A stretch of DNA of 64,000 nt from NCBI RefSeq assembly GCF_003386195.1, contig NZ_QRDX01000005.1:98915-162914 (forward strand). The letters run 5' to 3'. The DNA comes from Seonamhaeicola aphaedonensis. GTDB taxonomy: Bacteria; Bacteroidota; Bacteroidia; Flavobacteriales; Flavobacteriaceae. Position numbers and translations under genes: made by a program. Shown in pieces: positions 328 through 55,213 of this stretch (its first letter is position 1; the number at the start of each line of letters is the position of its first letter). The notes beneath the pieces are model-generated. The model worked only from the letters and a program-made list of their open reading frames with translations, searched no databases and was not told the origin of the DNA.

Positions 328-374
328 TACAGGCCAGTACAGGATAATCAACTTGCTATTGTTTTATACTTTTC
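328..374 (+). promoter_or_regulatory. PUL promoter 1: CAGG-N6-CAGGATA-N20-TACTTTTC
   Basis: TACAGGATA lies at 338-346, with an extra TACAGG exactly 10 bp upstream (328-333). Twenty nt later is the -7-like box TACTTTTC (367-374), 37 nt before the sulfatase start at 411. The same arrangement recurs before most operons of the window. Confidence 0.75.
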
Positions 375-410
375 AAAAGTTAGATTAATATCCAAGTTGA
401 ATTCAAAATA

Positions 411-1871
411 ATGACTCATCAAACAAAAAAAATTTATCTTTTATTATTATTGATTTTGGTGGTTTTCTCATGTAAACATAAAACCTCCGAAGAAAATATT
501 AAGGAGCAAAAACCTAATCTGCTATTTATTTTTGCCGACCAATACAGGCAAGCCTCTTTAGGGTTTTTAAATGAAGACCCTGTGCACACACCAAACATAG
601 ATCAACTCGCTGAAGAGGGGGTGTTTTTTAGTGAAGCTGTTTCAAATAATCCATTATGCAGTCCATATAGAGCTATGCTCATGACCGGCCGCTATTCGCT
701 TTCTACTGGAGTTGTAGAAAATTGCAACTCACAAAGAACAGCGTACGGCAATTATTTAAAAAAAGATGAAGTTTGTATTTCTGATGTTTTGGTTAATAAT
801 GGTTATAGCGCAGGTTATGTTGGTAAATGGCATTTAGACGGTCCAGAGCCAACACCACCCGATGTAAAACGCGTTTGGGATACGTGGTGTCCACCAGATA
901 GAAGACATGGGTTCTCTTTTTGGTATGCTTACGGTACTCATAACAGGCATAACGACCCGTATTATTGGACCACCGATGGCGGGGAAGAAGATAAAGTATA
1001 CCCTAAACAATGGTCGGCAGAACACGAAGCCAATGTGGTTATTAATTATTTAGAAAACAACGAAAATCAACGTAAAAATGATGAGCCGTTTGCCTTATTT
1101 TGGTCTATCAATCCACCCCACACACCTTTTACCCAAGTTCCAGAGCGTTATAAAAAACGCTATGAAGGTTTGGATTATAAAGAAGTATTAAATCGTCCAA
1201 ACGTTCAGTTTAGCGATAACCATGAGTTGAAACGCGGTGATAAAGGTGTAGAGGCCCGATTACATGAAGCTAAAGACTATTTTGCTTCAGTTAATGGTGT
1301 AGACGACCAAATAGGGAGAGTTATAGAACAACTAAAAACCTCAGGATTATATGACAATACTATTATTGTGTTTTCTGCCGATCATGGTGAAATGTTAGGA
1401 AGCCAAGGCTTGATGCACAAAAACGTATGGTTTAAAGAAGCTTATGCCATACCTTTTATTGTGCATTATCCGAAGAAGCTCAAACCCAAAACAGAAGATT
1501 TGTTAATTTCTGTACCAGATTATATGCCAACACTGTTAGGGTTAATGGATTTAAAGAATAAAATTCCAGATGCTGTTGAAGGTCTAGATTATTCTAATCT
1601 ATTTTTCGATAAAGAAGTCATTCGTCCAGAGAAGCAACTGTACTTTGGAGGAAAAAGTTTTGCATCAAAAGGAGATACTCGAGGGTTTAGAACCAAAGAT
1701 TATACCTATGCTGTGGTAAAGGGTGAAAATGATGAGAAGTTTCATTACCTCTATCATGATGCCAAAGACCCTTATCAAATGACCAATATTTGGGGTAAAA
1801 ACCCTAATCTTGACCATAAAATGGAAGTTGAATTAGCAGAATTACTAACCTCTATGAACGACGCTTGGTAA
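411..1871 (+). CDS. S1-family sulfatase, lipoprotein
   Basis: This 486-aa formylglycine-dependent sulfatase probably removes sulfate esters from algal glycans. Residues 1-21 form a lipoprotein signal (hydrophobic run, lipobox Cys21), so it should be membrane-anchored in the periplasm or at the surface. Residues 83-87 are CSPYR, the C-x-P-x-R site whose Cys83 becomes formylglycine. The N-terminal metal site reads FADQ (Asp43-Gln44), a common S1 variant of Asp-Asp. GKWH (138-141) and a distal SADHG segment complete the usual pocket. Length is normal for the family. It is first in a two-gene operon, with the next start only 15 nt after its stop. The exact S1 subfamily and position specificity cannot be read from the sequence alone. 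Confidence 0.9.
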   Translation: MTHQTKKIYLLLLLILVVFSCKHKTSEENIKEQKPNLLFIFADQYRQASLGFLNEDPVHTPNIDQLAEEGVFFSEAVSNNPLCSPYRAMLMTGRYSLSTGVVENCNSQRTAYGNYLKKDEVCISDVLVNNGYSAGYVGKWHLDGPEPTPPDVKRVWDTWCPPDRRHGFSFWYAYGTHNRHNDPYYWTTDGGEEDKVYPKQWSAEHEANVVINYLENNENQRKNDEPFALFWSINPPHTPFTQVPERYKKRYEGLDYKEVLNRPNVQFSDNHELKRGDKGVEARLHEAKDYFASVNGVDDQIGRVIEQLKTSGLYDNTIIVFSADHGEMLGSQGLMHKNVWFKEAYAIPFIVHYPKKLKPKTEDLLISVPDYMPTLLGLMDLKNKIPDAVEGLDYSNLFFDKEVIRPEKQLYFGGKSFASKGDTRGFRTKDYTYAVVKGENDEKFHYLYHDAKDPYQMTNIWGKNPNLDHKMEVELAELLTSMNDAW

Positions 1872-1886
1872 ACCTAGACTTTAATA

Positions 1887-3110
1887 ATGAAAATTAACCG
1901 CAGAAATTTTATCAAAGGTATCTCTAGTCTAGGGCTGTTCAGTTTATCATATCCTTTACTGTCATCATGTATTAGTAATAAAGATGTATTGACTTTAAAA
2001 ATCACTAGGATTGAATTTTATCAGTACAATATTAATATTCCGCGATATTTTTCTTTTGGTACATGGTTGAATCGTCAGCACATATTTATGAGAATAACTG
2101 CGGGCGACCAGTATGGTTGGTCTGAAATTCCTGCTTCCAGAAATAATCCAGATGTTGATTTGAGTCCATGGGTACATTATGTGAAACAATTCAAGGGTTT
2201 AAGTATTGTAGAAGCGCAAAAGTTATTACAATCGCAACAAGTAAAAGGCTCAAAAACATCTTTAAAATTTTTGGAGCTAATGGATATGGGCTTGCTTGAT
2301 TTAGCAGGAAGACTAGAAAATAAGCCAGCTATAGAGCTACTTGGTTTAAATCATCGAGAGCCAGTGCCTGGGTTATATTGTATTTTACATAAAGATGAAG
2401 ATAAGGTTAGAGAAGAAGCTCAAAAAAGTTTAGAGCAAAACCTAGGGCATCACATGAAATTTAAAATGTATGGAGATATGGAGGTCGATCTCAAGTTATT
2501 GCGAATTATTCGTGAGGTTTTAGGTGAAAAGGCTGTGGTGATTTCTGATGTCAATAAAGGGTATAAAAAATGGAAATCGTTAGAAGAATTGGCTGAGATT
2601 CTAAACATTTTTAGAGAAAATGGACTTAATGCTGTTGAAGACCCTGCACCATTAACCACAGAACAATGGATTGCACTTCAAAATACGACTAGAGATTTAG
2701 ACTTAATTCCAGATGCACCTATGCGACCCGCTTGGGAGGGTGTAGATAAACTACAAAAAGGCATGGGGCGAATTATCAATCTTCATCCTTCTACTATGGG
2801 GAGTTTCAACCATACTGCACTGTTGGTAAATAAAGTACAAGACATGGGGGCAAAAGTAATGATTGGTGATGATAGTTTAGTTGGACCTGCATGTTCTGCA
2901 TGGCAACAAATAGCTATTGGAGCAGGGGCCACTTGGGTGGAGGCTATTGAGAAAGAAGAGGATTCTAAAGACTATATGGAATGTGTATTAAAATCTTCTA
3001 CTACCAAACGAAGTGATGGTTATTATAAAATGAACTCAAAACCAGGTTTTGGACTAGAGCTGGATGAAAAAAGATTAAATTCTTTTTGTAGTCGTTATAT
3101 CGATGTTTAG
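1887..3110 (+). CDS. Exported enolase-superfamily (mandelate racemase/muconate lactonizing-like) protein
   Basis: A 407-aa member of the enolase superfamily, whose relatives abstract a proton alpha to a carboxylate, typically dehydrating or epimerizing sugar acids. The superfamily pattern is visible: KFK (191-193, position of the catalytic lysines), a metal ligand in SDVNKGY (Asp221, Asn223), a second in VEDP (Glu251), an Asp in IPDAP (276), and a C-terminal IGDDS segment (328-329). The N-terminus is unusual for this family: NRRNFIK (twin arginine at 5-6), a hydrophobic stretch and a lipobox-like LSSC (Cys28), suggesting Tat export and lipidation. It is the second gene of the sulfatase operon. 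A uronate or unsaturated uronate is a reasonable substrate guess in this context, but it is only a guess. Confidence 0.8.
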   Translation: MKINRRNFIKGISSLGLFSLSYPLLSSCISNKDVLTLKITRIEFYQYNINIPRYFSFGTWLNRQHIFMRITAGDQYGWSEIPASRNNPDVDLSPWVHYVKQFKGLSIVEAQKLLQSQQVKGSKTSLKFLELMDMGLLDLAGRLENKPAIELLGLNHREPVPGLYCILHKDEDKVREEAQKSLEQNLGHHMKFKMYGDMEVDLKLLRIIREVLGEKAVVISDVNKGYKKWKSLEELAEILNIFRENGLNAVEDPAPLTTEQWIALQNTTRDLDLIPDAPMRPAWEGVDKLQKGMGRIINLHPSTMGSFNHTALLVNKVQDMGAKVMIGDDSLVGPACSAWQQIAIGAGATWVEAIEKEEDSKDYMECVLKSSTTKRSDGYYKMNSKPGFGLELDEKRLNSFCSRYIDV

Positions 3111-3125
3111 CAAATTAAAATTGAA

Positions 3126-4016
3126 TTATTCTACTCGACATAATTCTACATCCTTAAATTCCACGTGAGCCGTAACATCACCCTCATCACTTGCGCCATA
3201 AGCACCATAGCGTGTAACAACGTCTTCTGTGGTATGATTGTGTTCAATAAATACTTTAATATTCCCTATTTTTATTTTTGAAAATGCTGTGCCGTCGGCA
3301 TCGTAACCAGTTTCGTAAACAAAATCATAATCTTGATGATAGTTTAACGTTGTAAAATCTTTTACATCTCTTGCTCCACCAGTATCTGAGGTGTAAGGAT
3401 TTGTAGTAGTATGAGTTTCAAGTTGTACTTTGTTATTAGCGCCTTTTTTTGCATAAATTAAAAATTGAGCGCTTCGGTTGGCGCTTCCAGCTTCCTCTCC
3501 TTTTAATATATCCCCATTAGCATGTGATTGTATGATACAAGTATTTCCATCGCTTAAATCAATAATTTTTAACGACCCAGAAAGAATCATTTTTTTATTG
3601 GTACCTTGTTGTAGGCGTTTGAAAAAGCGTTCTACTCGAGTCTTTGTACCATCGTACCGGATGGGGCCACCAATAATTTTATAACTACCCCAACCATCAG
3701 CCAAGTTTTCATACCCTCCAAGAGTACTATCGGTTCTGCAATCTAAGGTGCCTTTATTGTTTGGGTTAGAAACATCATCACAGGATTTTGACCCTAAGGC
3801 ACTAGGTCCAAGATTTGGAAAATCTGAGGGGTCATCACAGTTTTGATTAGTTGGTGTATTATTCTCAGGCGTTATGCTGTCTTTGGGTTCTTCAGTGGCA
3901 GAGTCTTCTTGTTCTACTTCAGAGGTAGGTTTACTAGAGCAGGATATACAAAAAAGTAGAAAAATGCTTAGTACAATTGTACCTCTAATACGGTATTTTA
4001 ATAGATGCTTTGTCAT
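3126..4016 (-). CDS. Jelly-roll polysaccharide lyase-like lipoprotein (PL28/PL7-type candidate)
   Basis: A 296-aa lipoprotein (lipobox FCISC, Cys26) with a Glu/Asp/Thr/Pro-rich linker to about residue 58 and a C-terminal beta-rich domain. Three short motifs recall the jelly-roll lyases of PL7, PL18 and PL28: RVER (127-130), QSH (163-165) and RYGAYG (269-274), placed in the order in which those families present Arg, Gln-His and Tyr on the concave sheet. PL28 enzymes are ulvan lyases, which would fit the rhamnose and sulfatase context, but I cannot confirm the family by eye. Five further cysteines (60, 79, 93, 160, 293) may form disulfides. It is a single gene, divergent from the GH78 operon, with its own copy of the PUL promoter, and it ends 15 bp from the convergent enolase-superfamily gene. 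Confidence 0.6.
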   Translation of the reverse strand: MTKHLLKYRIRGTIVLSIFLLFCISCSSKPTSEVEQEDSATEEPKDSITPENNTPTNQNCDDPSDFPNLGPSALGSKSCDDVSNPNNKGTLDCRTDSTLGGYENLADGWGSYKIIGGPIRYDGTKTRVERFFKRLQQGTNKKMILSGSLKIIDLSDGNTCIIQSHANGDILKGEEAGSANRSAQFLIYAKKGANNKVQLETHTTTNPYTSDTGGARDVKDFTTLNYHQDYDFVYETGYDADGTAFSKIKIGNIKVFIEHNHTTEDVVTRYGAYGASDEGDVTAHVEFKDVELCRVE

Positions 4017-4048: not shown

Positions 4049-4085
4049 TAAAGGTAAAAATTTGGTAAAATATTAGTATCCTGTT
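4049..4085 (-). promoter_or_regulatory. PUL promoter 2' (minus strand): CAGGATA-N20-TACCTTTA
   Basis: Read on the minus strand, AACAGGATA (4085-4077) is followed after exactly 20 nt by TACCTTTA (4056-4049), 33 nt before the start of the jelly-roll lyase-like gene at 4016. It is back to back with the plus-strand copy at 4118-4154. The distal half-site is degenerate (CTAG at the 10-bp position). Confidence 0.72.
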
Positions 4086-4117
4086 CCATCTAGTTTTCTT
4101 TACTCAGAGCGGGAGGG

Positions 4118-4154
4118 TGCAGGATAATGGAACCCAATAATTATATTATTTTTC
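4118..4154 (+). promoter_or_regulatory. PUL promoter 2: TGCAGGATA-N20-TATTTTTC
   Basis: TGCAGGATA at 4118-4126 lies 20 nt ahead of TATTTTTC (4147-4154), 31 nt before the GH78 start at 4185. A weaker half-site (CGGG) lies 10 bp upstream, at 4110-4113. Confidence 0.75.
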
Positions 4155-4184: not shown

Positions 4185-7037
4185 ATGAAAATGAGACAAC
4201 TATACGTTTTGTTACTACTGGTATTAACCGTATCATGTAATGAAAAATATGAAGCCAAAGGTACTCTGGTTTTTAACAAAGTATTGGTAAATTCCAAAGA
4301 AAATCCACAAACCATTGAGAGTGAAACTCCTGTTTTTTCATGGGAGGTTAATGCTGAAGGTTTTAACAAGTCCCAATCGGCCTATCAAATTTTAGTGGCC
4401 TCTGCAGAAGATAAGTTGAATAATAATGAGGGTGATATTTGGAATTCTTCAAAAATAAAAAGTACTCAATCTGCACATGTAAAGTTTGAAGGTGAAGCTC
4501 TGGAGGCTCTTAAAAAGTACTTTTGGAAAGTAAAGATTTGGGATGAGAAAGGAACATCTTCTAGGTGGTCTGATGTTCAAACCTTTGAAATGGGGTTGAT
4601 GAATGAAGCTAATTGGGGAGAAGCCAAATGGATTACCCTAAATAAGGATACCAGAACTTCAGAATATCGCTTTAGAGATTATAAAACAGGGCGCATGGAT
4701 AAGCCAGTTCCTGTAGAGGGGTTTCCTGCAAGTTATTTTAGAAAAGAATTGAATGTTGAAAAAGATATTGAGAATGGGCAAGTTTACATTTGTGGATTGG
4801 GATATTATGAATTGTTTTTAAATGGTGAAAAGGTGGGCGACCATGTGTTAGACCCAGCACCGTCAAATTATGATAAGCAAGCTTATTATGTGAATTATGA
4901 TATTACCGATGATCTAAAATTCGGTAAAAATGCTTTTGGAATTAATTTGGGAAATGGGTTTTACGGACAAAATATTTCTTGGAAAAATGACCCTGAATCC
5001 GATAGAGATTTAGCTTTTGGACCACCAACGGTACGTTGTTTAGTAAAGTTGAAATTTGCTGACGGTTCTGAATCCGATTTTTATACTGATGCGTCTTGGA
5101 AAGAATCTACAGGACCTATTGTTTTTAATAATATTTATGGTGGCGACACTTATGATGCACGATTCGAAATTGGTGATTGGACAACAGAGGATTACAACGA
5201 TTCAGACTGGGGTAATGCTAAAGAAGCTTCACCAAAAATTAAAAAGTTTAGTGCGCAACAAATCCCACCAATTAAAAAATTGCAAGAATTGGAACCTCAA
5301 AACGTTTTTAAAGGTGCCGATGGCGAATGGATTGTAGATTTTGGTCAAAACATTGCAGGTTGGATTAAGTTAAACGTTAAAGAGAAAGAAGGCCAATTTA
5401 TTGAAGTAATCACTACAGAAGCGTTATTGACCGATGGAAGTGATATCTTTTTGGGATCCACAGGTGGGGGTGCTAACGGAATGCCTCAAATTTATGAATA
5501 CATCTGTAAAGGAAGTGAGCTAGAATCTTGGGAACCAAAATTTAGCTATCATGGTTTTAGGTTTGCTAAAGTGAAAGGTGTTTCTACAAAACCAGATGCT
5601 AATATGATTAAAGCAGTTTTAGTCGCTACAGATATTCAGGAAACAGGAAGTTTTAGCTCTTCTGATGAACTGTTGAACAAAATGCATAGTATTAGTAAAT
5701 GGACTATTGTAGACAATATTCATGGCATACCAGAAGATTGTCCACACCGTGAAAAATGTGGTTGGTTGGGTGATGCCCATGCATTTTGTGAGTATGCACT
5801 TTATAATTACGATATGTACGATTTCTACAAGAAATATATGGATGACATCCGTACACAAATGCGACCAACAAAAGGGTATAATAATCCAGAAATAAAGTTT
5901 CAAGTACCCACCATGATTGCTCCAGGAAAACGCACCTCTACCTATGCAAAAATAGATTGGGGTGTAGCCACCATGTATTTGCCTTGGTACAACTACAAAT
6001 TTTATGGAGATGATGACATTGTTTTAGAGTATTACGATGCCATGAAAGGCTTAACAGATTTCTATCTAAATTATAAAGGGGAAAATGGAATTATGCAAGA
6101 TGGTATGGGCGATTGGTGTCCACCACGATGGGATAGAAGATTAAACCCTTCTGCTATGGAGTGTGATCCAATCATTTCGGCGAATGCTTATTTTTATGAT
6201 GTCTTGGGTATTATGGAACGATTTGCTAAGATGAATAATGATACAGATTATGAGTTGAAAATGAAACAAGAAAAAGAAGCTTTAAAAACAGCTTTTAATA
6301 AAGAATTTTTGGTTGAAATTCCGGGTACAAAATACAAATGGTATCAAAGTCAAACAGCAACGGTACAAGCCTTACAATTTGGAATCGTACCAGAAAATGA
6401 GGTCGATAATGTGGTAAACGGATTGGTGCACGATATTGTTGCTGTTAAAGGCGGGCATCACTCCACGGGAATCCATGGCAACAGATATATTTATACCGTT
6501 TTGTCTAACTACGGAAAAGCCGATTTAGCTTATGATATCTTAACCACACCCGAGTTTCCTAGTCAAACGTATGTTATGAATTCAGGTTTTACAACATGGC
6601 CAGAGCGTCAGTTTGTTTGGGAAGACATGGAAGGGCCAACCAATTCTTTAAATCACCCCATGCATACGGGTTTTGCAACGTATTTTTATGAGAGTTTAGG
6701 AGGCATACAAACATCTACAGAAAACGCTGGTTTTAAAGAGTTTGTTGTTAACCCGCAATTTCCATCTCAACTAACAAGTACAACTGTTGAGGTGCCAACG
6801 CCTTATGGAACCATACATAATGCTTGGAAGTTTGAAAACAATACGTTTAAAATGAATCTTAAAGTACCATTCAATACCAAAGCTAAATTAGTTTTAAGTC
6901 AGGAAGAATTAGAATCATTAGTGATTAATGGAAAATCATTTGCTGATGCGAAAAGTGAATACAATTTAGAAATTGAGGAAAACTCAAATGTAATTATTGG
7001 TTCTGGAGATTATGAAATAACTTATTCAAAATCTTAA
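4185..7037 (+). CDS. GH78 alpha-L-rhamnosidase, lipoprotein
   Basis: A 950-aa inverting alpha-L-rhamnosidase. It has a lipoprotein signal (LTVSC, Cys18), an N-terminal Fn3-like beta domain (to about 135), a long beta-sandwich region with the rhamnosidase N-terminal domain, then the alpha/alpha six-hairpin catalytic domain and a C-terminal beta domain. The GH78 signature reads EDCPHREKCGWLGD, with acidic residues Asp518, Glu523 and Asp530. A second conserved Glu follows in VWEDM (Glu813), then TNSLNHPMHTG. Compared with the two GH78 copies at 55-61 kb it has HREK in place of QRDER and WED in place of WERW, so it is a different subfamily with probably a different linkage preference. It heads the large 4.2-17.6 kb operon. 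Confidence 0.92.
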   Translation: MKMRQLYVLLLLVLTVSCNEKYEAKGTLVFNKVLVNSKENPQTIESETPVFSWEVNAEGFNKSQSAYQILVASAEDKLNNNEGDIWNSSKIKSTQSAHVKFEGEALEALKKYFWKVKIWDEKGTSSRWSDVQTFEMGLMNEANWGEAKWITLNKDTRTSEYRFRDYKTGRMDKPVPVEGFPASYFRKELNVEKDIENGQVYICGLGYYELFLNGEKVGDHVLDPAPSNYDKQAYYVNYDITDDLKFGKNAFGINLGNGFYGQNISWKNDPESDRDLAFGPPTVRCLVKLKFADGSESDFYTDASWKESTGPIVFNNIYGGDTYDARFEIGDWTTEDYNDSDWGNAKEASPKIKKFSAQQIPPIKKLQELEPQNVFKGADGEWIVDFGQNIAGWIKLNVKEKEGQFIEVITTEALLTDGSDIFLGSTGGGANGMPQIYEYICKGSELESWEPKFSYHGFRFAKVKGVSTKPDANMIKAVLVATDIQETGSFSSSDELLNKMHSISKWTIVDNIHGIPEDCPHREKCGWLGDAHAFCEYALYNYDMYDFYKKYMDDIRTQMRPTKGYNNPEIKFQVPTMIAPGKRTSTYAKIDWGVATMYLPWYNYKFYGDDDIVLEYYDAMKGLTDFYLNYKGENGIMQDGMGDWCPPRWDRRLNPSAMECDPIISANAYFYDVLGIMERFAKMNNDTDYELKMKQEKEALKTAFNKEFLVEIPGTKYKWYQSQTATVQALQFGIVPENEVDNVVNGLVHDIVAVKGGHHSTGIHGNRYIYTVLSNYGKADLAYDILTTPEFPSQTYVMNSGFTTWPERQFVWEDMEGPTNSLNHPMHTGFATYFYESLGGIQTSTENAGFKEFVVNPQFPSQLTSTTVEVPTPYGTIHNAWKFENNTFKMNLKVPFNTKAKLVLSQEELESLVINGKSFADAKSEYNLEIEENSNVIIGSGDYEITYSKS

Positions 7038-24015: not shown

Positions 24016-24585
24016 CTAGAATTGCAGTATTGTTAAAATGAAGGTGGTAGTAAATAGGACAAACTGTGCTAATTTTACCTTGGCGCGTTTTAATTGAGTT
24101 TTAACAGTGTTTACAGATATGTTGAGTTCGTTTGCTATTTCTTTATATTGATAGTCATTAACAAACCGCAACTTTACAATCAGCTTCATTTTGTTGGGTA
24201 AACTTTCTATTGATTCCAAAACTCTTTGGTAAAGAATTTGTTTGTTGTTATCTTCTAAGGTATAGGGGGTTTGAACATTTTTGTTAGCATAGTCTAAAAT
24301 GAACACATCATCCGTGTAAGATATTTTAAGCGCTTTTAATTTATTTAAACACTGGTTTCTTACCATGGCATATAAATATGCTTTTAGGCTTGTTTTTATT
24401 TCAATAGTTTCAGCTTTTTCCCAAAGACAAACGTACACATCTTGAACAATATCTTCACTTAAGCCTTTGTCAAACAAATATTGGTTTGCGTAAACAACTA
24501 ACTCGAAATAATGCTCTTGAAAAAGTTCTTTAAAAGCTAAATGATTCTTATTTCGTATTTCAAAAAGAATTTCTCTCGGGTTCAT
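24016..24585 (-). CDS. ECF RNA polymerase sigma factor with hydrophobic C-terminal tail
   Basis: A 189-aa group 4 sigma-70 factor of the Bacteroidota type. Region 2 (about 20-90) contains LSEDIVQDVYVCLWEKAE; region 4 (about 120-172) contains LPNKMKLIVKLRFVNDYQYKEIANELNISVNTVKTQLKRAK with a clear helix-turn-helix. The last ~16 residues (QFVLFTTTFILTILQF) are strongly hydrophobic, enough for a membrane-inserting tail, which could keep the factor near its FecR partner. It heads the sigma/FecR/SusC/SusD operon. A minus-strand PUL promoter lies 128-164 bp upstream, so the sigma gene may itself belong to the wider regulon. Confidence 0.92.
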   Translation of the reverse strand: MNPREILFEIRNKNHLAFKELFQEHYFELVVYANQYLFDKGLSEDIVQDVYVCLWEKAETIEIKTSLKAYLYAMVRNQCLNKLKALKISYTDDVFILDYANKNVQTPYTLEDNNKQILYQRVLESIESLPNKMKLIVKLRFVNDYQYKEIANELNISVNTVKTQLKRAKVKLAQFVLFTTTFILTILQF

Positions 24586-30980: not shown

Positions 30981-30998
30981 AAAATAAAAAAATAGATT

Positions 30999-32681: not shown

Positions 32682-32727
32682 TCAGTATAGTACAGGATAC
32701 ATAAATTCGTTAAGGATTTTACTTTTA
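32682..32727 (+). promoter_or_regulatory. PUL promoter 7: CAGT-N6-CAGGATA-N20-TACTTTTA
   Basis: TACAGGATA is at 32691-32699, with CAGT 10 bp upstream (32683-32686), and TACTTTTA (32720-32727) starts exactly 20 nt after the motif. The box ends 7 nt before the ATG at 32735 but 16 nt before that at 32744, so 32744 is the more plausible start of the GH5 gene. Confidence 0.73.
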
Positions 32728-41077: not shown

Positions 41078-41486
41078 ATAATTTGTGAAATTTGCTAAAA
41101 ACAAGGTTCTAGGAAGATACAGCATAAAAACACAAAGGTGTCCAAAATCAAACTAGTGTTAAGGGTGAGTTTTGTAATTGAATATTCTTTTTTCTGGATT
41201 TGAAACCATAAAAGGAGGTATTTAAAAAAAATCTATAGAGGTTTTTTACATAAACGTAACATATTTAAGTGTCTCAAAAGCAATAGATATTTTAAGTGTT
41301 TTAAAAAGATAACCACATAATACTTATTTTTAAAATATCAGAAAAAGGTATTTAGTTAGAAATAAAAAACAAATCAAAATGTGAAATTTCATAATTAAGT
41401 TTTTTAAGACCACAGGATGCTGCAGGATAGTTGAGGTAGGTTAGTGTTCTATTTTTAAAAAAAATATATTAATTAAGATATTTGTT
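41078..41486 (+). other. Gene-free region of 409 nt
   Basis: No ORF is supportable. The first 320 nt are AT-rich with no convincing terminator; a weak inverted A/T repeat around TCTATAGA at 41232-41239 is visible. The end carries the PUL promoter for rhaM. Confidence 0.6.
41412..41457 (+). promoter_or_regulatory. PUL promoter 8: CAGGATG-N3-CAGGATA-N20-TATTTTTA
   Basis: Two nearly identical half-sites, CACAGGATG (41411-41419) and TGCAGGATA (41421-41429), stand 10 bp apart. TATTTTTA (41450-41457) begins exactly 20 nt after the second. The rhaM start is 30 nt further. This is the clearest copy of the direct repeat. Confidence 0.78.
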
Positions 41487-41801
41487 ATGCAAAGACTAGC
41501 CTTTAAAATGAAATTAAATGAAGGCCAAAAGGAGGCCTATAAAGAACGTCATGACCAACTTTGGCCTGAACTAAAAAAACTGCTTAAAGATAGTGGGGTT
41601 AGTGAGTATTCTATTTTTTTTGACGAGGAAACCAGTACTTTGTTTGCTTTTCAAAAAGTATCTGGCGAGGGCGGTTCTCAAGACTTAGCTGATAACCCCA
41701 TTGTTAAAAAATGGTGGGATTTTATGGCAGATATTATGAAAGTAAACCCAGATAATTCACCAGTTTCCATTTCTTTGGAAGAGGTGTTTTTTATGGAGTA
41801 A
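41487..41801 (+). CDS. rhaM: L-rhamnose mutarotase
   Basis: A 104-aa cytoplasmic enzyme that interconverts alpha and beta anomers of L-rhamnose before isomerisation. Full length matches the family (about 104 aa). Tyr18 and His22 in AYKERHDQLWPEL match the conserved pair, and the C-terminal region holds VKKWWDFMADIM and the family-typical end. It is the only clearly cytoplasmic rhamnose gene in the window and directly ties the locus to free L-rhamnose. It is transcribed alone from its own PUL promoter, with another PUL promoter starting 24 nt after its stop. Confidence 0.95.
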   Translation: MQRLAFKMKLNEGQKEAYKERHDQLWPELKKLLKDSGVSEYSIFFDEETSTLFAFQKVSGEGGSQDLADNPIVKKWWDFMADIMKVNPDNSPVSISLEEVFFME

Positions 41802-41824
41802 TCTTAGTTTTTTTATCATAACAG

Positions 41825-41861
41825 TGCAGGATACACATAAAAATTAAAGTGCTTATTTTTA
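41825..41861 (+). promoter_or_regulatory. PUL promoter 9: TGCAGGATA-N20-TATTTTTA
   Basis: TGCAGGATA is at 41825-41833 and TATTTTTA at 41854-41861, with 20 nt between; a CA remnant of the distal half-site lies 10 bp upstream. The start of the secreted beta-propeller gene is 39 nt after the box. Confidence 0.73.
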
Positions 41862-47605: not shown

Positions 47606-47651
47606 GCAGTAAAGAGCAGGATGAACACCTTTTTTTTAAATGATAGATTTA
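47606..47651 (+). promoter_or_regulatory. PUL promoter 10: CAGT-N6-CAGGATG-N20-TAGATTTA
   Basis: AGCAGGATG (47615-47623) has GCAGT 10 bp upstream (47606-47610), and TAGATTTA (47644-47651) starts exactly 20 nt after the motif. The gene start at 47679 is 28 nt after the box. One mismatch (final G) from the consensus. Confidence 0.68.
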
Positions 47652-47678: not shown

Positions 47679-49856
47679 ATGAGAAAATTTACCCTCCAAA
47701 CTTTCATTATTATTTGCTTATTACAATCTCTTTTACTCCCTTCCTGCAGCCATAAAGAAAATATAGTTAAAGTTGTTACACATTCTGATGCACTTCAGGT
47801 TTCATTTGCTTTACAGGATGTAGAATTGGCTTTAGGTTCTCAATATCGGCTTGCTAATGCAGAATTTGTAGATAATGCAGATATAGTGTTGTCTATAAAA
47901 AAAATGGATACATTAAAGCCTGAAGGTTTCAAAATTGATAAAACAAAAAGCATACTAGAGGTTATTGGCTATGACGAAGCAGGATTGATGTATGGTACTT
48001 TAGAACTGGCGGAGCAGATTAAATTATATGGACTTGACGGTATAAAATCGATGGTTCGTAACCCGTATTTAGAAATGCGAGGGCCTAAATTTAATATCCC
48101 CCTAGATGTACGCACACCAAGTTACACCGATGTTTGTGATGCGGCTCAATTCAATATACCACACATGTGGGATTTCAGCTTTTGGAAAGACTATATCGAT
48201 ACCATGGCACGCTACCGTTATAATTATATTTCACTGTGGAGCTTGCATCCGTTTCCGTCGTTGGTGAAAGTGCCCGGATATGAAGAAATTGCGCTAGATG
48301 ATGTACAACGTTCAACAATAGATTGGGAGGAGCATTATAATCTCATGGGTATTGGTTTTGATGCTCCAGAAATTTTAGAAAATGTCGAAGTTTTAAAAAG
48401 AATTACCATAGATGAGAAAATTGAGTTTTGGAAAAAAGTAATGGCCTACGGAAAGCGCAGGAACATTGATTTTCATATAATCACATGGAATATTTTTGAT
48501 TATGGCACACAAGGGAAATATGGCATAACCGACGATAGAGATAATGAAATTACCAAGGACTACTTTAGAAAAAGTATTAAGCAATTGTTTGTTACCTATC
48601 CAGATTTAGCGGGTATTGGTTTGACAACAGGAGAGAACATGAAAGGTGCTAATCATGAGGAGCGTGAAGATTGGGCTTATGACACTTATGGCCTTGGTAT
48701 TTTAGATGCCGCCAAAGAAATGCCTGAAAGACAGTTTAAATTTATCCACCGGCAACACCAATCTGGTGCTAAAGAAATTGCTGAAAAATTTAAGGCGGTT
48801 GTTGAGGCTGAAAATGTAGAATTTTTGTTCTGTTTCAAATATGCTAAAGCCCATGTGTATAGTGCAACACAACAACCGTATCATGAAAATGCCAATTATT
48901 TAGAGCAAATTGAAGGTATGAAAACCTTATGGGGTTTGCGTAATGATGACACCTTTTACTTCAGGTGGGGCGCTCCCGATTTCACACGGGAGTTTATTAA
49001 CAATTTACCCTATGAAGATGTCGCAAAAGGAATTTATTTTGGTTCTGACCAGTGGATTTGGGGGCGAGATTTTTTAACTATAGCACCAGAAACACACAAC
49101 CAGATTGAGGTTGAAAAACATTGGTATCAATGGCTATTATGGGGCAGATTAAGTTATGATCCTTCCATATCAAATGACCGCTTTAAGGATATATTGGCAA
49201 GTCGATTTCCTGATATAGATGCTAATAAATTGTTTTCTGCATGGCAAAATGCTTCTATGGTGTATCCTATTACAACCGGATTTCACTGGGGAAGTCTCGA
49301 TTTTCAATGGTATATTGAAGGATGTAAGAGTCGGCCAAGTCAAGCAGAAAACGAAACTGGGTTTCATGATGTAAATCGTTTCATCTCTCTGGGTGTACAT
49401 CCAAAATCAGGAAATCAATCCATTCCAGATTATGTAAAAATGGTTTCCAACGGAAGTACTACCCCTTTAAAAACACCTTTACAGGTTTCAACAGAACTTC
49501 AAAAAGTATCAAATAGTGCATTAATAGATATTGAAGAATTTAAGGATATCCAGAATAAGGAATTGCAATTCACTTTAAACGATATTCAAACCGTTTCGTT
49601 TTTGGGGAAGTACTATGCCCATAAAATTGAAGGTGCCACTTATTTAGCGTTATTTCGAGATTCCAATAAAAACGAGTATCAAGAATTATCGGTAAAAGCT
49701 TTAGAGAATGCTCTTAAATTTTGGAACCAATATGTCGAGCAAGCCATGTTACAAAATCATAACCCTTTGTGGACCAACAGAGTGGGCATAGTAGATTGGA
49801 AACAAATTACGGAATGGGTAAAACAAGATATCGAAATCGCAAAATATGAGCAGTAA
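47679..49856 (+). CDS. Alpha-glucuronidase-like glycoside hydrolase, copy B, lipoprotein
   Basis: A 725-aa lipoprotein (LLPSC, Cys23). The N-domain holds IGYDEAGLMYGTLELAEQI (about 97-115), followed by a TIM-barrel: FWKDYIDTMARYRYNYISLWSLHPFPSLV, FHIITWNIFDYG, LAGIGLTTGENMKG (Glu319, possible catalytic acid) and FYFRWGAPDF. It pairs with the downstream DUF1593 gene, and the pair is repeated at 51362-55090. Copy C shares the same motif order (LWNLHPF, YMVNWNIF, LGITLGEGMGG, ILRWGQPDF). Glucuronidase activity is inferred from fold resemblance and the uronate-rich target. Confidence 0.68.
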   Translation: MRKFTLQTFIIICLLQSLLLPSCSHKENIVKVVTHSDALQVSFALQDVELALGSQYRLANAEFVDNADIVLSIKKMDTLKPEGFKIDKTKSILEVIGYDEAGLMYGTLELAEQIKLYGLDGIKSMVRNPYLEMRGPKFNIPLDVRTPSYTDVCDAAQFNIPHMWDFSFWKDYIDTMARYRYNYISLWSLHPFPSLVKVPGYEEIALDDVQRSTIDWEEHYNLMGIGFDAPEILENVEVLKRITIDEKIEFWKKVMAYGKRRNIDFHIITWNIFDYGTQGKYGITDDRDNEITKDYFRKSIKQLFVTYPDLAGIGLTTGENMKGANHEEREDWAYDTYGLGILDAAKEMPERQFKFIHRQHQSGAKEIAEKFKAVVEAENVEFLFCFKYAKAHVYSATQQPYHENANYLEQIEGMKTLWGLRNDDTFYFRWGAPDFTREFINNLPYEDVAKGIYFGSDQWIWGRDFLTIAPETHNQIEVEKHWYQWLLWGRLSYDPSISNDRFKDILASRFPDIDANKLFSAWQNASMVYPITTGFHWGSLDFQWYIEGCKSRPSQAENETGFHDVNRFISLGVHPKSGNQSIPDYVKMVSNGSTTPLKTPLQVSTELQKVSNSALIDIEEFKDIQNKELQFTLNDIQTVSFLGKYYAHKIEGATYLALFRDSNKNEYQELSVKALENALKFWNQYVEQAMLQNHNPLWTNRVGIVDWKQITEWVKQDIEIAKYEQ

Positions 49857-49857
49857 T

Positions 49858-51351
49858 ATGAAGGTTTTAAAAATAATAGTACTTGGCTTTTTGATTGGTT
49901 TCGGGCCGTATGCATTGAGTCAATCTTCAAAGCACCGATTGGTGATTTTGGCCGATATGGGTAACGAACCCGATGAGGAACAGCAAATGGCTCACATGCT
50001 CATGTGTTCCAATGAATTTGACCTTGAAGGACTTATTGCAGTGAGCGGAAAGTATTTACATAACAAGCATAGATTGGTTGAAAGACAAAGGCTATATCCA
50101 GATTTGTTTGAAAATCTTATTGATGGTTATGAAAAGGTTTTTGAAAACTTGAAAATACATACCAAAGGTTATCCAGAACCAGCCTACTTAAGAACCATTG
50201 GGGCCTCAGGGCAACCTGGATATGGTATGGGCGATGTTGGAGATGGAAAAAGTACCAAAGGGTCGGAGTTATTAATTGATATTTTTAAAAAGGAGGACTC
50301 ACGTTTAATTTATATTGTGGTGAATGCAGGTTCTAACACATTAGCGCAAGCATTAAATGATTTTAAGGCGAGTCATTCGGAAGAGACCTTGAATAATGTG
50401 TTAAAAAAACTGAGGGTGTTTGAAAATGGTGCACAAGATGACGCAGGGGCTTGGATTTGCGCCAATTATCCTGACATTCATTGGACACGAAGTAACTATC
50501 AAACCTATGCCTATGGTGGGCCTGCTTGGGCTTGGGGAAATGACCCTGATGCCGATAAAAAAGGGCCTCACACGTGGAAACCCTACGCCTATAACGCCAC
50601 AGGGCAACATCAATGGGTACTAGAGCATATCAAAAACCATGGAGCCTTAGGGAGATTATTTCCTTTGAGAGAAACACCAACGGGTAGACTGGCCTTTATT
50701 GAAGGCGGAGGGACTATTCCTTGGTTGGGGCTTATACATCAAGGATTATCTGATATAAGTCAACCCAGTTGGGGTAGTTGGAGTGGTAGATTTTCAGAAA
50801 AACCGATTAAAAATGTACCCTCAAGACATGAAAGTGTAAGAGTTGATGAGGAGGCATACGGTGATTATTATTTATTTACCGAAGTTTCAGATGTTTGGAA
50901 AGACCCAGAAACCAATCTAGTGTATAATTCAATTTATGCACCTGTTTGGAGGTGGCGGCAAGCTTACTATAACGATTTTCAAGCCAGAATGGATTGGTGT
51001 GTGGCTTCTTTTGAAAAAGCCAATCATCATCCAGTAGCCTCAATAAATGGGGATAACACAGAAAAAATTCATTTTATACCAATCACTTCTGGAGATACTA
51101 TTTCATTGGATGCTTCTGGTTCTTTAGACCCAGATGCCGATAATCTAACCTATAAATGGTGGGTTTATAGAGAGGCAGGAACTTACAAAGGAAATACACA
51201 ATTAATTAAGAACCCTACACAGGCTATTACTGAGATTGTAGCTCCAGAGGATGCTTCAGGTAAAACCATTCATGTTATTCTTGAAATTGAAGACAATAAT
51301 AGTATTGCTTCATTGCACGATTATAGGCGCATTATTTTAACCGTTGAATAA
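49858..51351 (+). CDS. DUF1593 / Sde0182-like protein (copy 2)
   Basis: Begun at the ATG at 49858, one base after the upstream stop, which gives the signal MKVLKIIVLGFLIGFGPYALSQ; an ATG at 49846 inside the previous gene would add four polar residues. The 497-aa protein has the nucleoside-hydrolase-like ILADMGNEPDEEQQM near residue 30, GSNTLAQALNDF, IEGGGTIPWLGLIHQGLSD, and the Ig-like C-terminal domain (LDASGSLDPDADNLTYKWWVYREAG). Closely related to copies at 7108 and 53522, but exported with a standard signal peptide instead of a lipobox. Translationally close to its partner gene, implying matched amounts of the two proteins. Confidence 0.82.
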   Translation: MKVLKIIVLGFLIGFGPYALSQSSKHRLVILADMGNEPDEEQQMAHMLMCSNEFDLEGLIAVSGKYLHNKHRLVERQRLYPDLFENLIDGYEKVFENLKIHTKGYPEPAYLRTIGASGQPGYGMGDVGDGKSTKGSELLIDIFKKEDSRLIYIVVNAGSNTLAQALNDFKASHSEETLNNVLKKLRVFENGAQDDAGAWICANYPDIHWTRSNYQTYAYGGPAWAWGNDPDADKKGPHTWKPYAYNATGQHQWVLEHIKNHGALGRLFPLRETPTGRLAFIEGGGTIPWLGLIHQGLSDISQPSWGSWSGRFSEKPIKNVPSRHESVRVDEEAYGDYYLFTEVSDVWKDPETNLVYNSIYAPVWRWRQAYYNDFQARMDWCVASFEKANHHPVASINGDNTEKIHFIPITSGDTISLDASGSLDPDADNLTYKWWVYREAGTYKGNTQLIKNPTQAITEIVAPEDASGKTIHVILEIEDNNSIASLHDYRRIILTVE

Positions 51352-51361
51352 TTTTAACTTT

Positions 51362-53518
51362 ATGAAGTTTATCAAAAAAAAGCTACCCTTTAAAATTGTT
51401 GCAACCTTTGTGCTACTTCTATGCATAGGATGTGAAAAAGAATCATCTTTCACTATTAATATCCAAAATACTATCAATGCCCCACAAGTATTACATGGTA
51501 TTAATAAGTTGACGGATTTCGCAGAAAAAAATACTGTTACCATAGCCCAAAATAATGATGCTTTAATCATAAAAACGGTCTTGGATTCTTCAGCCTTAAA
51601 AACAGAAGCCTTTTCCATTAATTCAAATGATAACTTAGTCACGGTAACTGGAGGCGATGCTACTGGCATTATGTACGGACTGTTGGACATTAAAGAACAA
51701 ATAGCATCAGGCAATAAGGCTATTGAAAATAAAGATGAAGCGCCAAATTTGGCATTTAGGGCGCTAAAATTCAATTTGCCATGGGAGGCTTATCGAAGCA
51801 GTAAAACATTAGAAGCGCATACCGAAACTTGTAAGGATACACTGTTTTGGAGGGATTTTTTAGATATGATGGCTGAAAATCGTTTTAACAAGTTAACCTT
51901 GTGGAATTTACATCCATTTAGTAGAATGGTTAAAACCGAAAAGTATCCCGAAGCCTGTAGTCTTTCTGATGAAGAAATGAACAGATGGGAAACGTTATGG
52001 CATACGCTTTTTAGAATGGCTAAAGATCGTGGTATTGAAACCTATATGGTTAACTGGAATATTTTTGTGTCTAAAGAATTTGCTGAACATCACAAGGTGT
52101 CTCATATTTCTATAAAGAAAGAGACTCATGTTGGTGTAGGTGATACTTCTGAAGTTGTTAAAGATTATATGCGCGAATGTGTTAGAGAGACCATTGATAA
52201 ATATCCTAACCTTACAGGTTTAGGAATTACCCTTGGAGAGGGTATGGGCGGAATGACAGCAGAGGAACGTGAAGAATGGATTTTGGAAACAGTGGTAGAA
52301 GGTGCTAGACAAGCCAAACGAAAAATAAAATTTATTCATCGTGTACCACTCTCAGCAGGAACGGGTAGTGGTGGTTCTACAGATGTGTCGGTTGAAAAGT
52401 TAACCCGACGAACATTAGACACTTTAACCTGTTTTGATGGCCCCATAAATATCGAACTGAAATTTAATTGGTCTCACGGCCATTCAACACCAAAATTAGT
52501 AAAAGTACATGGAGGCGAACTTAAGGATACTTATTGGAACCCACTGCCTGAAAACTATTATTTAGCGTGGATGATTCGTAACGAAGATTTTTTCATTCTG
52601 CGTTGGGGACAACCAGATTTTATTAGACAGCATATTGCAGAAAACTTACATCCGTATGTGAATGGCTATTATGTGGGTTCAGAAACTTACATTCCTGCTA
52701 AAGACTATATTACTTCATTAAAAGGCGCTTCTACTACGTATGCTTTTGAAAGGCAATGGATGTTTTATAAAGTTTGGGGGCATTTACTTTATAATCCCGA
52801 TACACCAGATTCTTATTTTATTCAAGCTTTTGAAAATCGTTTTCCAAGTCATGGAAAAGCATTGTTTGAAGCCCAGTCCAAAGCAAGTAAAGTACCATTA
52901 ATTATTGCTTCCTTCTGGAATGCTAAATGGGATTTTACCTTGTATTCCGAAGGTATGTTAGGCTTTAATGATGGGCCACCAGCTGTAAAACTATTGTCAT
53001 TACAAACTTTAGCCAATAGAACACCAATGGACCCAAGGTATACGGGTATTAAGGAATTTGTTGATACAGGAAAGAAGACAGTTTTGGGTAAAATTACACC
53101 CATCCAATTAGCTGATTCATTAAGTGTTTTTTGTAATGAAGCCTTGAGAATAGTGCAACCAATTAATTATGAGACTAATACAGATTTACTTTATGAAAAA
53201 GCCGATATTCAGGCTTGGGCTTATTTGGGGCTTTATTTTTCTGATAAATTGAAATCAGCCGTAGCATATCAACGATATTTAAATACAGAAAAAGAAATAT
53301 TTCATCAAGAGGCTGTGACGTGCTTAGAAAGTGCTACTAAAAATTGGTCAAAATTGGTAGATGTCACCAAACCTGTTTATCAACCTGTTCCTATAGAACA
53401 TAAGGGCTATCGAGTAAAAAGTAATTTGTTCCATTGGTCTATAGTTCAGGAAGAAGTGGAAGCAGAATTGAAATGGTTAAAGATATTAGACCTTAAATCA
53501 ATTAAAGAATTAAACTAA
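51362..53518 (+). CDS. Alpha-glucuronidase-like glycoside hydrolase, copy C, lipoprotein
   Basis: The ATG at 51362, 10 nt after the upstream stop, gives a 718-aa lipoprotein (LLCIGC, Cys24); a TTG at 51344 would overlap the previous gene and is unlikely. The N-domain contains TGGDATGIMYGLLDIKEQI (about 96-114), then the TIM-barrel: FLDMMAENRFNKLTLWNLHPFSRMV, YMVNWNIFVS, LTGLGITLGEGMGG (Glu293), FILRWGQPDF. It is a clear paralogue of copy B, diverged enough that a different linkage or substituent may be recognised. It precedes DUF1593 copy 3 by 3 nt. Confidence 0.68.
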   Translation: MKFIKKKLPFKIVATFVLLLCIGCEKESSFTINIQNTINAPQVLHGINKLTDFAEKNTVTIAQNNDALIIKTVLDSSALKTEAFSINSNDNLVTVTGGDATGIMYGLLDIKEQIASGNKAIENKDEAPNLAFRALKFNLPWEAYRSSKTLEAHTETCKDTLFWRDFLDMMAENRFNKLTLWNLHPFSRMVKTEKYPEACSLSDEEMNRWETLWHTLFRMAKDRGIETYMVNWNIFVSKEFAEHHKVSHISIKKETHVGVGDTSEVVKDYMRECVRETIDKYPNLTGLGITLGEGMGGMTAEEREEWILETVVEGARQAKRKIKFIHRVPLSAGTGSGGSTDVSVEKLTRRTLDTLTCFDGPINIELKFNWSHGHSTPKLVKVHGGELKDTYWNPLPENYYLAWMIRNEDFFILRWGQPDFIRQHIAENLHPYVNGYYVGSETYIPAKDYITSLKGASTTYAFERQWMFYKVWGHLLYNPDTPDSYFIQAFENRFPSHGKALFEAQSKASKVPLIIASFWNAKWDFTLYSEGMLGFNDGPPAVKLLSLQTLANRTPMDPRYTGIKEFVDTGKKTVLGKITPIQLADSLSVFCNEALRIVQPINYETNTDLLYEKADIQAWAYLGLYFSDKLKSAVAYQRYLNTEKEIFHQEAVTCLESATKNWSKLVDVTKPVYQPVPIEHKGYRVKSNLFHWSIVQEEVEAELKWLKILDLKSIKELN

Positions 53519-53521
53519 TAT

Positions 53522-55090
53522 ATGAAGGTAAAAAGATTTATTATTTATAGTCTTTTAATAGTTGTGTTGTTCTCTTGTAAGGATAACAATCAAAAAACCA
53601 TAAGAGGAAACAAGGAAGATATCAATACCAATCCTAAAATTTTCCCATCTGTTATGGAAACAGACCAAAATTCAAACAAAAACAGATTCATTTTAATGTC
53701 TGATATTGGCCACGATCCAGACGATGAACAGCAATTTGTTCATTTGTTAATGTACTCCAATAAATTTGATTTGGAAGGATTAATAGCGGTAACAGGACGT
53801 TATTTTAGACCAAATCCCAAGGATACCGTAAAAGTGCTGATGCCAGAGTTATTTCATTATTATATTGACGGTTATGAAAAAGTATACCCAAATCTGCAAT
53901 TGCATGAAAAAGGATGGAAAACACCAGGGTATCTCCATAGCATTGTTGCTTCGGGTCAAGAGGGGAATGGTATGAAAGATGTTGGTTTAGGTAAAACTAG
54001 TGAAGGCTCTAAATTGATTATAGAGACTCTACTAAAAGATGATGATAGACCTATTTTTGTGCTTTCAAATGGCGGTATGAATACATTGGCGCAAGCGTTG
54101 TTCGACCTAAGAAATGATTACCCAAAAGAAAAATTAAAACCACTGATTTCTAAACTAAGAGTTTATGATAATTCGGGACAAGATGAAAGTGGTGCTTGGA
54201 TTTGTCATGAATTTCCAGACTTGTTTTATATTCGGGCTATCCATCAAAATAAAAGTTTTGGAGGACCTTCAAATACTAATCTAGGACCCCATATTTGGCA
54301 ACCTTACGAGTATAGTCCTTTTGGACAACATCAGTGGTTTAAAGAAAATTTGCAAACCAATCACGGTAAATTGGGTGTCTTATATCCAAATAGAAAAGTA
54401 GATAACACCTTTCATTTTATTGGGGGTGGTGGGACCATACCTTGGTTGGTGCTTGTTAATCCTGCATTATCTGACATGTCTGAAACTTCTTGGGGCGGTT
54501 GGGGCGGACGTTACTCAGCGAAGAAAAATGACAACCCACCATCTGGATTTTCAATTGTTGAAGCTGATGAACAACCGTATTTACCATACAAGGCTTATAC
54601 CGATGGAGACCCTATTGTAGATACCTGGACAAACCCCGATGATGGAAAAGTTTACGCCGATGAATACACGCCTGTTTGGCGTTGGCGCAAAGCTATTTGG
54701 AACGATTTAAAAGCTAGAATGGATTGGTGTGTTCAGCCTTTCAATAAAGCGAATCACCGTCCTGTGGCTGTATTAAATGGCGATAGTACCAATCAAATAG
54801 TAAAGTCAAAATATAACTATCATGAAGAGGTGATTTTAGATGCTACCGGTTCAACAGACCCAGATGGTGATAATTTGAGCTATAAGTGGTGGATATATCT
54901 CGAAGCTGGAAAAAAATCATACAACAAGCCCATAAAAATTGAAAATGATACCCAAATTAAAACATCATTTAAAATCCCCCTAGATGCAGCAGCCAGAGAA
55001 TTACATGTCATTTTAGAGGTGCATGATAATAATAGTATAGTGCCTTTAATTGAATATAGACGTATGGTCATTATTGTCACTAATTATTAA
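53522..55090 (+). CDS. DUF1593 / Sde0182-like lipoprotein (copy 3)
   Basis: A 522-aa lipoprotein (VLFSC, Cys19) with a longer linker (to about 55). ILMSDIGHDPDDEQQF replaces the ADMGNEPDE of the other copies, with more acidic residues at the presumed metal site. GGMNTLAQALFDL, IGGGGTIPWLVLVNPALSD and the C-terminal Ig-like domain (LDATGSTDPDGDNLSYKWWIYLEAG) are conserved. It closes the duplicated cassette and is followed by a terminator. Confidence 0.82.
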   Translation: MKVKRFIIYSLLIVVLFSCKDNNQKTIRGNKEDINTNPKIFPSVMETDQNSNKNRFILMSDIGHDPDDEQQFVHLLMYSNKFDLEGLIAVTGRYFRPNPKDTVKVLMPELFHYYIDGYEKVYPNLQLHEKGWKTPGYLHSIVASGQEGNGMKDVGLGKTSEGSKLIIETLLKDDDRPIFVLSNGGMNTLAQALFDLRNDYPKEKLKPLISKLRVYDNSGQDESGAWICHEFPDLFYIRAIHQNKSFGGPSNTNLGPHIWQPYEYSPFGQHQWFKENLQTNHGKLGVLYPNRKVDNTFHFIGGGGTIPWLVLVNPALSDMSETSWGGWGGRYSAKKNDNPPSGFSIVEADEQPYLPYKAYTDGDPIVDTWTNPDDGKVYADEYTPVWRWRKAIWNDLKARMDWCVQPFNKANHRPVAVLNGDSTNQIVKSKYNYHEEVILDATGSTDPDGDNLSYKWWIYLEAGKKSYNKPIKIENDTQIKTSFKIPLDAAARELHVILEVHDNNSIVPLIEYRRMVIIVTNY

Positions 55091-55093
55091 AGA

Positions 55094-55131
55094 GGCTAAC
55101 AGAATGGATCCTTCATTCTAATAGTCTTTTT
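55094..55131 (+). terminator. Terminator after the duplicated cassette
   Basis: A 13-nt arm (55094-55106) pairs with 55114-55126, with two internal mismatches and one G-U pair, a 7-nt loop, and five T residues after it. Confidence 0.6.
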
Positions 55132-55176
55132 AAAATCAATAAAGTGTATCAGTGTATTGTCTTTTTTTAATGACAG

Positions 55177-55213
55177 TACAGGATAGTTTTTTGCCAAAAA
55201 AACAGCATCTTGC
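55177..55213 (+). promoter_or_regulatory. PUL promoter 11: TACAGGATA-N20-CATCTTGC (weak -7)
   Basis: TACAGGATA at 55177-55185 is perfect, but the box 20 nt downstream (CATCTTGC, 55206-55213) is the poorest match of the set, there is no distal half-site at 10 bp, and the leader to 55281 is 67 nt. The promoter may rely more on its activator or start elsewhere. Confidence 0.5.

Follow-up and report, generated by a model that had tools for sequence, protein, structure and literature searches.

Doubled CAGGATA elements at a fixed distance from the −7 box as probable operator-promoters of a rhamnose-polysaccharide regulon in Seonamhaeicola aphaedonensis

Introduction

The closest described counterparts of the system analyzed here are regulators of the AraR subfamily, such as AraR of Bacillus subtilis, in which a GntR winged helix is joined to a LacI-type domain and which serve a sugar regulon. 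AraR represses, and its operator is an inverted repeat. Here we analyze a 64,000-nucleotide stretch of the Seonamhaeicola aphaedonensis genome (contig NZ_QRDX01000005.1, positions 98,915 to 162,914 of the forward strand; hereafter the window), in which twelve intergenic sites carry the sequence CAGGATA or a close variant. Unlike the AraR operator, the element repeats in the same direction, with a 10-bp period and at a fixed distance from the −7 box. We consider it probable that the twelve sites serve as operator-promoters in a rhamnose-polysaccharide regulon and that activators of the GntR/LacI-hybrid (AraR-type) class read them, including the one encoded from position 63423 of the window.

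GntR proteins on direct repeats have been described. NanR of Escherichia coli, a FadR-type GntR protein, binds (GGTATA)3 as dimers on closely spaced repeats in an asymmetric pose, and the spacing matters (PMC8012715). The third repeat copy that we notice in three loci resembles the triple repeat of NanR. NanR itself represses, however, and its effector domain is all-helical; its dimers lie about half a turn apart, not one (PMC8012715). MocR-type GntR activators (GabR, TauR and PdxR) share the winged helix, the direct repeats and the activation (PMC5320631), but they carry an aminotransferase-like effector domain and serve amino-acid and vitamin genes. FarR and NagQ are further GntR proteins on direct repeats (PMC4494728).

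Among rhamnose regulators, the DeoR-type RhaR controls rhamnose genes from motifs that are direct repeats with a period of 10–11 bp (PMC3870299). The RhaR proteins of other bacteria differ from our candidate in belonging to the AraC, DeoR or LacI families, the term GntR being absent from the main text of that article, and RhaR of Bacteroides is of AraC type (PMC3878776). In another flavobacterium, Zobellia galactanivorans, the GntR-family protein AusR controls an algal polysaccharide locus. It differs from the proposed activator in repressing alginate genes (PMC8286568).

Searches of one open-access library returned no published description of a CAGGATA direct-repeat operator. For many of the proteins that control polysaccharide loci in marine Flavobacteriaceae, no operator is known. 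The predicted operator-regulator pair is present in 35 of 199 genomes of the family and is testable, and rhamnose-linked genes could be found by promoter sequence. Here a GntR-type protein would appear to act through a direct repeat that stands where the −33 element is expected.

Repeat architecture and spacing of the proposed operator

The first-pass annotation of the window had taken CAGGATA as the motif. The motif is real, but it makes up only one half, the downstream one, of a direct repeat with a 10-bp period (CAGGATAGTR-CAGGATA). We compared the two halves in 17 sites of the window's contig (C5; other contigs of this genome are labeled likewise), which were picked on CAGGATA-N20-TAnnTT alone, without regard to the upstream copy. 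An upstream CAG lies exactly 10 nt away in 10 of the 17, and the upstream and downstream 7-mers correlate at 0.94 at 10 bp; the correlation does not exceed 0.32 at the 14 other offsets tried or 0.50 in inverted orientation. The inverted-repeat operator of most GntR regulators is not matched by these values, a comparison that holds only if the window's GntR protein binds. The logo of 27 sites from this genome, part of them found using a pattern with the upstream CAG, reads CAGGATAGTR-CAGGATA-V, 20 nt, TAnnTTTR. A second copy at −21 was sought in the same 27 sites, and no conserved copy was seen. Triple-copy operators in the 10-bp register occur at G145:C5:286859, G110:C32:38726 and G127:C21:512065 (prefixes denote genome and contig), the third copy being imperfect in G127.

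The rigid 20-nt gap claimed earlier was borne out. When the gap after CAGGAYR was left free between 11 and 33 nt in the 199 genomes, 80 of 99 matches had 20 nt, and the others had 19 (four matches), 21 (two), 25 (five), 26 (three), 30 (three), 14 (one) or 17 nt (one); a few loci entered this count twice. The three matches at 30 nt start one repeat earlier, in three copies in a row. The five at 25 nt (G078, G190, G067, G062 and G009) are CAGGACCTATCAGGA-like doublets, which look like a conserved coding repeat and a source of false positives for the pattern. Exact pairs on C5 (positions 1–260,000) number 17 at a gap of 20 nt and 0–4 at each other gap from 12 to 30 nt.

The box is the normal −7 box of Bacteroidota, TAnnTTTR, as previously described. 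Its places 1, 2, 5 and 6 are T, A, T and T in 26, 26, 26 and 27 of the 27 sites, most of which were selected with the box as part of the pattern. It had also been proposed that no good TTG is needed at −33. With gaps of 19–21 nt, TTG is absent from all 14 operator boxes, but only 13 of 107 other boxes have it, so that this small sample gives weak support.

All twelve sites of the window lie at the positions annotated before, and the earlier list was complete: a matrix trained only on 51 exact sites of other genomes (the foreign matrix, from which the window scores below are taken) ranks exactly these twelve as 1–12, at 11.1–35.3 bits, followed by a thirteenth match at 8.8 bits. Ten of them outscore the best of 40 dinucleotide shuffles (18.3 bits), the exceptions being the sites at 55177 (12.1 bits) and 27863 (11.1 bits). 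The distance of exactly 20 nt stands as a position in 12 of 12, but the box is good in only 11, that of site 55177 being poor (CATCTTGC). CAGGATA-N20-TAnnTT is exact in nine of the twelve; sites 27565 and 47615 carry a single motif change each (CAGGTTA and CAGGATG, respectively). In the window, exact CAGGATA is present 20 times, the mean being 7.7 and none of 100 shuffles reaching that count. Matches with up to two mismatches number 50 against a mean of 34, so the pattern is specific only in its strict form.

Co-occurrence with a clade of GntR regulators

Exact sites occur in 35 of the 199 genomes, and the reversed control gave 0 in each. A relative of the window's GntR protein at E < 1e-85 is found in 42 genomes, namely 33 of the 35 with sites and 9 of the 164 others (Fisher p 5e-27). 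This cut-off was set after seeing the list and falls in a gap, the weakest included match having 1e-104 and the next 2.5e-76. Relaxing the cut-off to E < 1e-65 gives 35 of 35 and 12 of 164. Each of the nine GntR genomes without an exact site has a best site of 27–33 bits in the 17 kb around gntR. In eight of these, a site of 25–32 bits stands 18–75 nt before an apparent rhamnulose-phosphate aldolase/dehydrogenase gene (698–714 aa; the family was confirmed on two other members). At the remaining locus (L186), a different gene follows the best site, and a second site lies inside a called open reading frame (ORF). At ten loci with a more distant GntR, no CAGGATA-type site of at least 12 bits was found.

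A second sample, of 296 genomes from the phylum, has exact sites in 13, with 0 in the control. We searched the 11 site genomes that were not in the first sample together with 21 non-site genomes, chosen as all but one of those sampled from the same genus or families. Five further genomes that belong to the first sample do not enter these counts. GntR at E < 1e-65 is present in 10 of the 11 versus 2 of the 21 (p 1e-5), and at E < 1e-85 in 6 of the 11 versus 0 of the 21 (p 5e-4). The match in the eleventh site genome, G353, resembles the CAGGACCTATCAGGA-type coding repeat. The predicted operator-regulator pair also occurs outside the family, in four genomes that belong to a second one and in a single genome from a third.

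We surveyed the neighbors of the sites in 20 regions of 20 kb, taken from 19 of the 21 site genomes that are without the clade of hybrid two-component system (HTCS) regulators considered below. The families common to these regions are SusC-like (13 regions), SusD-like (12), GntR regulator (7), aldolase/dehydrogenase (6) and other rhamnose genes (5), named largely by eye and confirmed on one region. A DNA-binding domain of AraC or HTCS type is present in 2 of the 20.

The candidate regulator and its proposed mode of action

The 5' part of the proposed regulator gene occupies positions 63423–64000 (+) of the window and continues past it (C5 162337–163380). The whole gene encodes 347 aa with a GntR winged helix and a LacI-type domain. 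The winged helix (Pfam PF00392) was detected in this protein and two relatives, and Peripla_BP_3 in two of the three GntR proteins scanned, with no match in the window's own protein. The structure model of the latter (mean pLDDT 91.7, 22 aligned sequences) matches LacI-family structures in a fold search, and the model predicts an effector domain of LacI type. PDB matches of its DNA-binding domain include the B. subtilis arabinose repressor AraR (E 7e-5). The closest named relative, from Seonamhaeicola sediminis, is 91% identical. The genome contains five GntR paralogues (C5:162337, C5:192504, C1:127193, C1:83497 and C8:157519), four of which have sites or variant sites within about 6 kb, and the regulon may be shared among them.

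The computed features behind our proposal are the repeat structure, the rigid spacing, the position upstream of operons, the co-occurrence with the GntR clade and the doubling with other words described below. From these we infer direct binding, the effector, and activation instead of repression. Two DNA-binding domains would sit head to tail on the two CAGGATA copies, and the one helical turn between the copies would bring the two winged helices onto one face of the DNA. The downstream copy would replace the −33 element at a fixed 20 nt before the −7 box. With L-rhamnose or a close breakdown product held in its sugar-binding domain, the regulator may contact sigma or RNA polymerase, and transcription of the sulfatases, rhamnosidases, SusCD, RhaM, RhaT and rhamnose catabolic genes would then start. 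An activator overlapping −33, as put forward in the first-pass annotation, is the most economical reading. We favor it over repression because an activator contacting sigma needs one exact spacing and a repressor does not.

Several observations weigh against this proposal. Co-occurrence cannot separate gntR from rhamnose genes that move together with it. The presence of five paralogues means that several proteins could read a given site. No listed GntR gene comes within 100 kb of the sites at 6–60 kb of C5; the foreign-matrix scan gives the window's gntR no operator of its own, and the nearest sites of the window locus are at least 5 kb away from it. We found no operator within about 1.5 kb of GntR in the fetched flanks of G024, G318, G457, G205 and G210, nor one less than 3 kb from GntR in 9 of 16 named loci, including that of the closest relative. 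Among the matches listed, a GntR gene is no more than 50 kb away from 57 of the 109 exact sites of the family, and an HTCS gene from 39 of the 109, so proximity alone is not decisive. At the distant GntR loci treated below, the gap is looser, 17–23 nt. AraR is a repressor by its PDB molecule name. GntR proteins usually bind inverted repeats (PMC4494728), and AusR is a repressor (PMC8286568).

Alternative explanations

The same GntR protein could instead be a repressor that occupies the −33 region until the sugar releases it, which we consider unlikely. Repressor sites usually vary in position, whereas 80 of 99 sites here keep one spacing to the nucleotide. The operator also replaces the −33 element and does not overlie a good one, a weak argument at 0 of 14 versus 13 of 107 boxes with TTG. 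On the side of repression stand the AraR match of the DNA-binding domain (E 7e-5) and AusR, the flavobacterial GntR regulator of alginate genes, which represses (PMC8286568).

An HTCS protein at C5:163578-167642 or C5:17849-21910 might be the binder, given that the two helix-turn-helix units of its AraC-type domain could touch two turns 10 bp apart. This was our initial hypothesis, taken from the two HTCS genes of the contig with a similar recognition helix; it lost its lead with the site genomes lacking the clade and with the GntR and rhamnose genes in the neighbor clusters. We now hold it to be improbable, even though the genes lie in the locus and, among the 35 site genomes, 14 carry the DNA pattern of the recognition helix (LFxK[IF][KR]AW), compared with 5 of 164 others (p 1e-8). 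The clade (at least 51% identity) is missing from 21 of the 35 site genomes, and G064 is without an HTCS match at E ≤ 1e-20. An AraC-type domain occurs in only 2 of 20 site regions, and both proteins have lengths that do not fit an HTCS. In the literature, HTCS motifs are described as direct repeats with a distance of about 21 bp, the average in Bacteroides thetaiotaomicron (PMC3878776), whereas the period here is 10 bp with no conserved copy at −21. Far less probable still is an alternative sigma factor, for example the extracytoplasmic function (ECF) sigma factor at 24016–24585, that reads CAGGATA as its −35 element. The fixed spacing to the −7 box would suit such a factor, and one of the sites in the locus stands before a sigma/FecR pair. 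Against it speak the ordinary TAnnTTTR box, the tandem arrangement of the motif, which in three loci extends to a third copy, and the co-occurrence of the sites with GntR.

Besides the proposed GntR activators, HTCS proteins may have an additional role. We notice that three of them (C5:17849-21910, C5:163578-167642 and C8:124157-128215) share the recognition helix LF(N/T)K(I/F)(R/K)AW, the DNA pattern of which is present in 19 of the 199 genomes. An operator of their own was not found for these three proteins.

Repeat words beside other GntR proteins

The 10-bp doubling recurs while the word changes, as seen in repeats of CAGAACA, CATGATG and CTGGTAG beside other GntR proteins. In G108, whose GntR is 46% identical, CAGAACAGTACAGAACGG lies upstream of a SusC-like gene and CTTAACAGTACAGAACAC upstream of an aldolase gene (word CAGAACA). 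In G340 the form is CATGATGGTACATGATGG (word CATGATG). The distant GntR proteins, with CTGGTAG, adjoin galK and galT (named on one locus, by eye on the others), and this clade apparently serves galactose. CTGGTAG-GTA-CTGGTAG-like repeats with up to four mismatches are found at 8 of the 10 distant-GntR loci, where mononucleotide shuffles of all ten together lead one to expect 2.4 matches; the 17-mer was derived from some of these ten loci. The gap to a TAnnTT box is 20 nt in three, 21 in two, and 17 and 23 in one each, with no box in one. Three of three further distant-GntR loci that were not used for the word (L237–L239) carry the repeat with gaps of 20–21 nt. Exact CTGGTAG repeats with a TAnnTTTR box occur in 3 of the 199 genomes, two of them adjoining a GntR. 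A word-agnostic scan of the ten loci gave 2–5 matches at period 10 and 0–2 at other periods, a thin difference.

We tentatively suggest that the sugar-sensing GntR/LacI hybrids of Bacteroidota could form an activator family with one promoter grammar, in which a regulator-specific 7-letter word is doubled at exactly one helical turn and takes over from the −33 element, with about 20 nt left to the −7 box. We regard this generalization as possible rather than probable. If it is true, regulon and substrate would be readable from promoter sequence, with CAGGAYA for rhamnose and CTGGTAG for galactose.

Proposed operators and genes in the window

The first operator-promoter (330–374, +) lies before a sulfatase gene (411–1871) and reads CAGGCCAGTA-CAGGATA, 20 nt, TACTTTTC, with a score of 24.3 bits. 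Two operators follow on opposite strands. The one at 4049–4093 (−; 24.5 bits) precedes a 296-aa gene without a Pfam family (3126–4016), and the one at 4110–4154 (+; 20.4 bits) precedes a GH78 rhamnosidase gene (4185–7037) and the genes following it. The operator at 24713–24757 (−; 26.4 bits) stands before the sigma factor, FecR, SusC and SusD genes (24585–17723), 162 nt from the called start of the sigma factor. Next to it, the site at 24852–24896 (+; 19.2 bits), with the box TAAATTGC, precedes a gene of the 3-keto-disaccharide hydrolase family (24922–25698).

At 27529–27573 (−; 28.1 bits) the upstream copy is exact and the downstream copy is CAGGTTA; the genes below are a 287-aa gene without a Pfam family (26591–27454) and a ThuA-family gene (25754–26515). 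The site at 27855–27899 (+), before SusC/SusD (27930–32588), has its upstream copy shifted by one base and is weak (11.1 bits). GH5, GH3 and GH88-like genes from 32735 onwards are preceded by the operator at 32683–32727 (+; 29.9 bits). The highest score, 35.3 bits, belongs to 41413–41457 (+), which reads CAGGATGCTG-CAGGATA and lies before rhaM, the L-rhamnose mutarotase gene (41487–41801). It is followed by 41817–41861 (+; 22.4 bits) before a BNR_4/sorting-domain gene at 41900 and the genes after it. The operator at 47607–47651 (+; 20.6 bits) precedes the stretch 47679–55090, where two of four genes scanned are Sde182_NH-like, previously labeled DUF1593. The last one, at 55169–55213 (+), with the poor box CATCTTGC and a weak score of 12.1 bits, stands before two GH78 genes, one GH43 gene and one sulfatase gene from 55281.

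The genes below the sites comprise sulfatases, GH78 and GH106 rhamnosidases, a sulfatase-GH78 fusion, SusC/SusD, GH43, GH3, GH5, GH2, RhaM and RhaT. An operon below one site encodes a bifunctional rhamnulose-1-phosphate aldolase/dehydrogenase, which scores above the curated cut-off, as well as a likely rhamnose isomerase and a likely rhamnulokinase, both under their curated cut-off. In this genome, sites precede rhaT and the rhaEW gene, and a gntR gene is divergent from the latter. Because these genes fit it, the substrate would be a sulfated, rhamnose-rich algal polysaccharide such as ulvan. The position of the sigma factor/FecR/SusC/SusD unit under the operator at 24713–24757 (−) suggests a cascade in which the sugar regulator acts on an ECF sigma factor.

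Distribution over the genome

Over the whole genome (3.51 Mb, 41 contigs), 20 exact copies of CAGGATA-N20-TAnnTT are present, 17 on C5 and 3 elsewhere, compared with 2 occurrences of the reversed pattern. Equal frequency of the motif before unrelated genes had been named as the result that would speak against a regulon; this test was run in part, and only the three exact sites mentioned lie outside C5. The ten annotated downstream genes outside the window are all carbohydrate-linked or oxidoreductase genes. The sites extend beyond the window, over 6 to 205 kb of C5 and onto C8. The earlier notion of one regulon holds in that a regulatory element is shared, but it reaches further than the window and may comprise several overlapping regulons, as the genome holds five GntR paralogues. 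On C5 and 98 kb of C8, an ORF starts 16–304 nt downstream of the matches of at least 20 bits, and no such match falls inside a called ORF in the stretches fetched; the matrix used here was trained on most of those sites.

On C1, weaker sites of 12.7–17.3 bits are present at 131210 (−), 131485 (+) and 141669 (+), with the form ACAGANNCNRCAGGATG and the usual gap. They lie near a 50% identical GntR (C1:127193) and another HTCS, and they are perhaps a paralogue-specific variant operator. On C5, an AraC-type gene (C5:40425-41300) adjoins one site; it was set aside as a candidate binder, AraC-type domains occurring in 2 of the 20 site regions. The gene at C5:6465-9980 encodes a 1171-aa protein in which a sulfatase is joined to a GH78-type domain, and it is preceded by two operators 162 bp apart.

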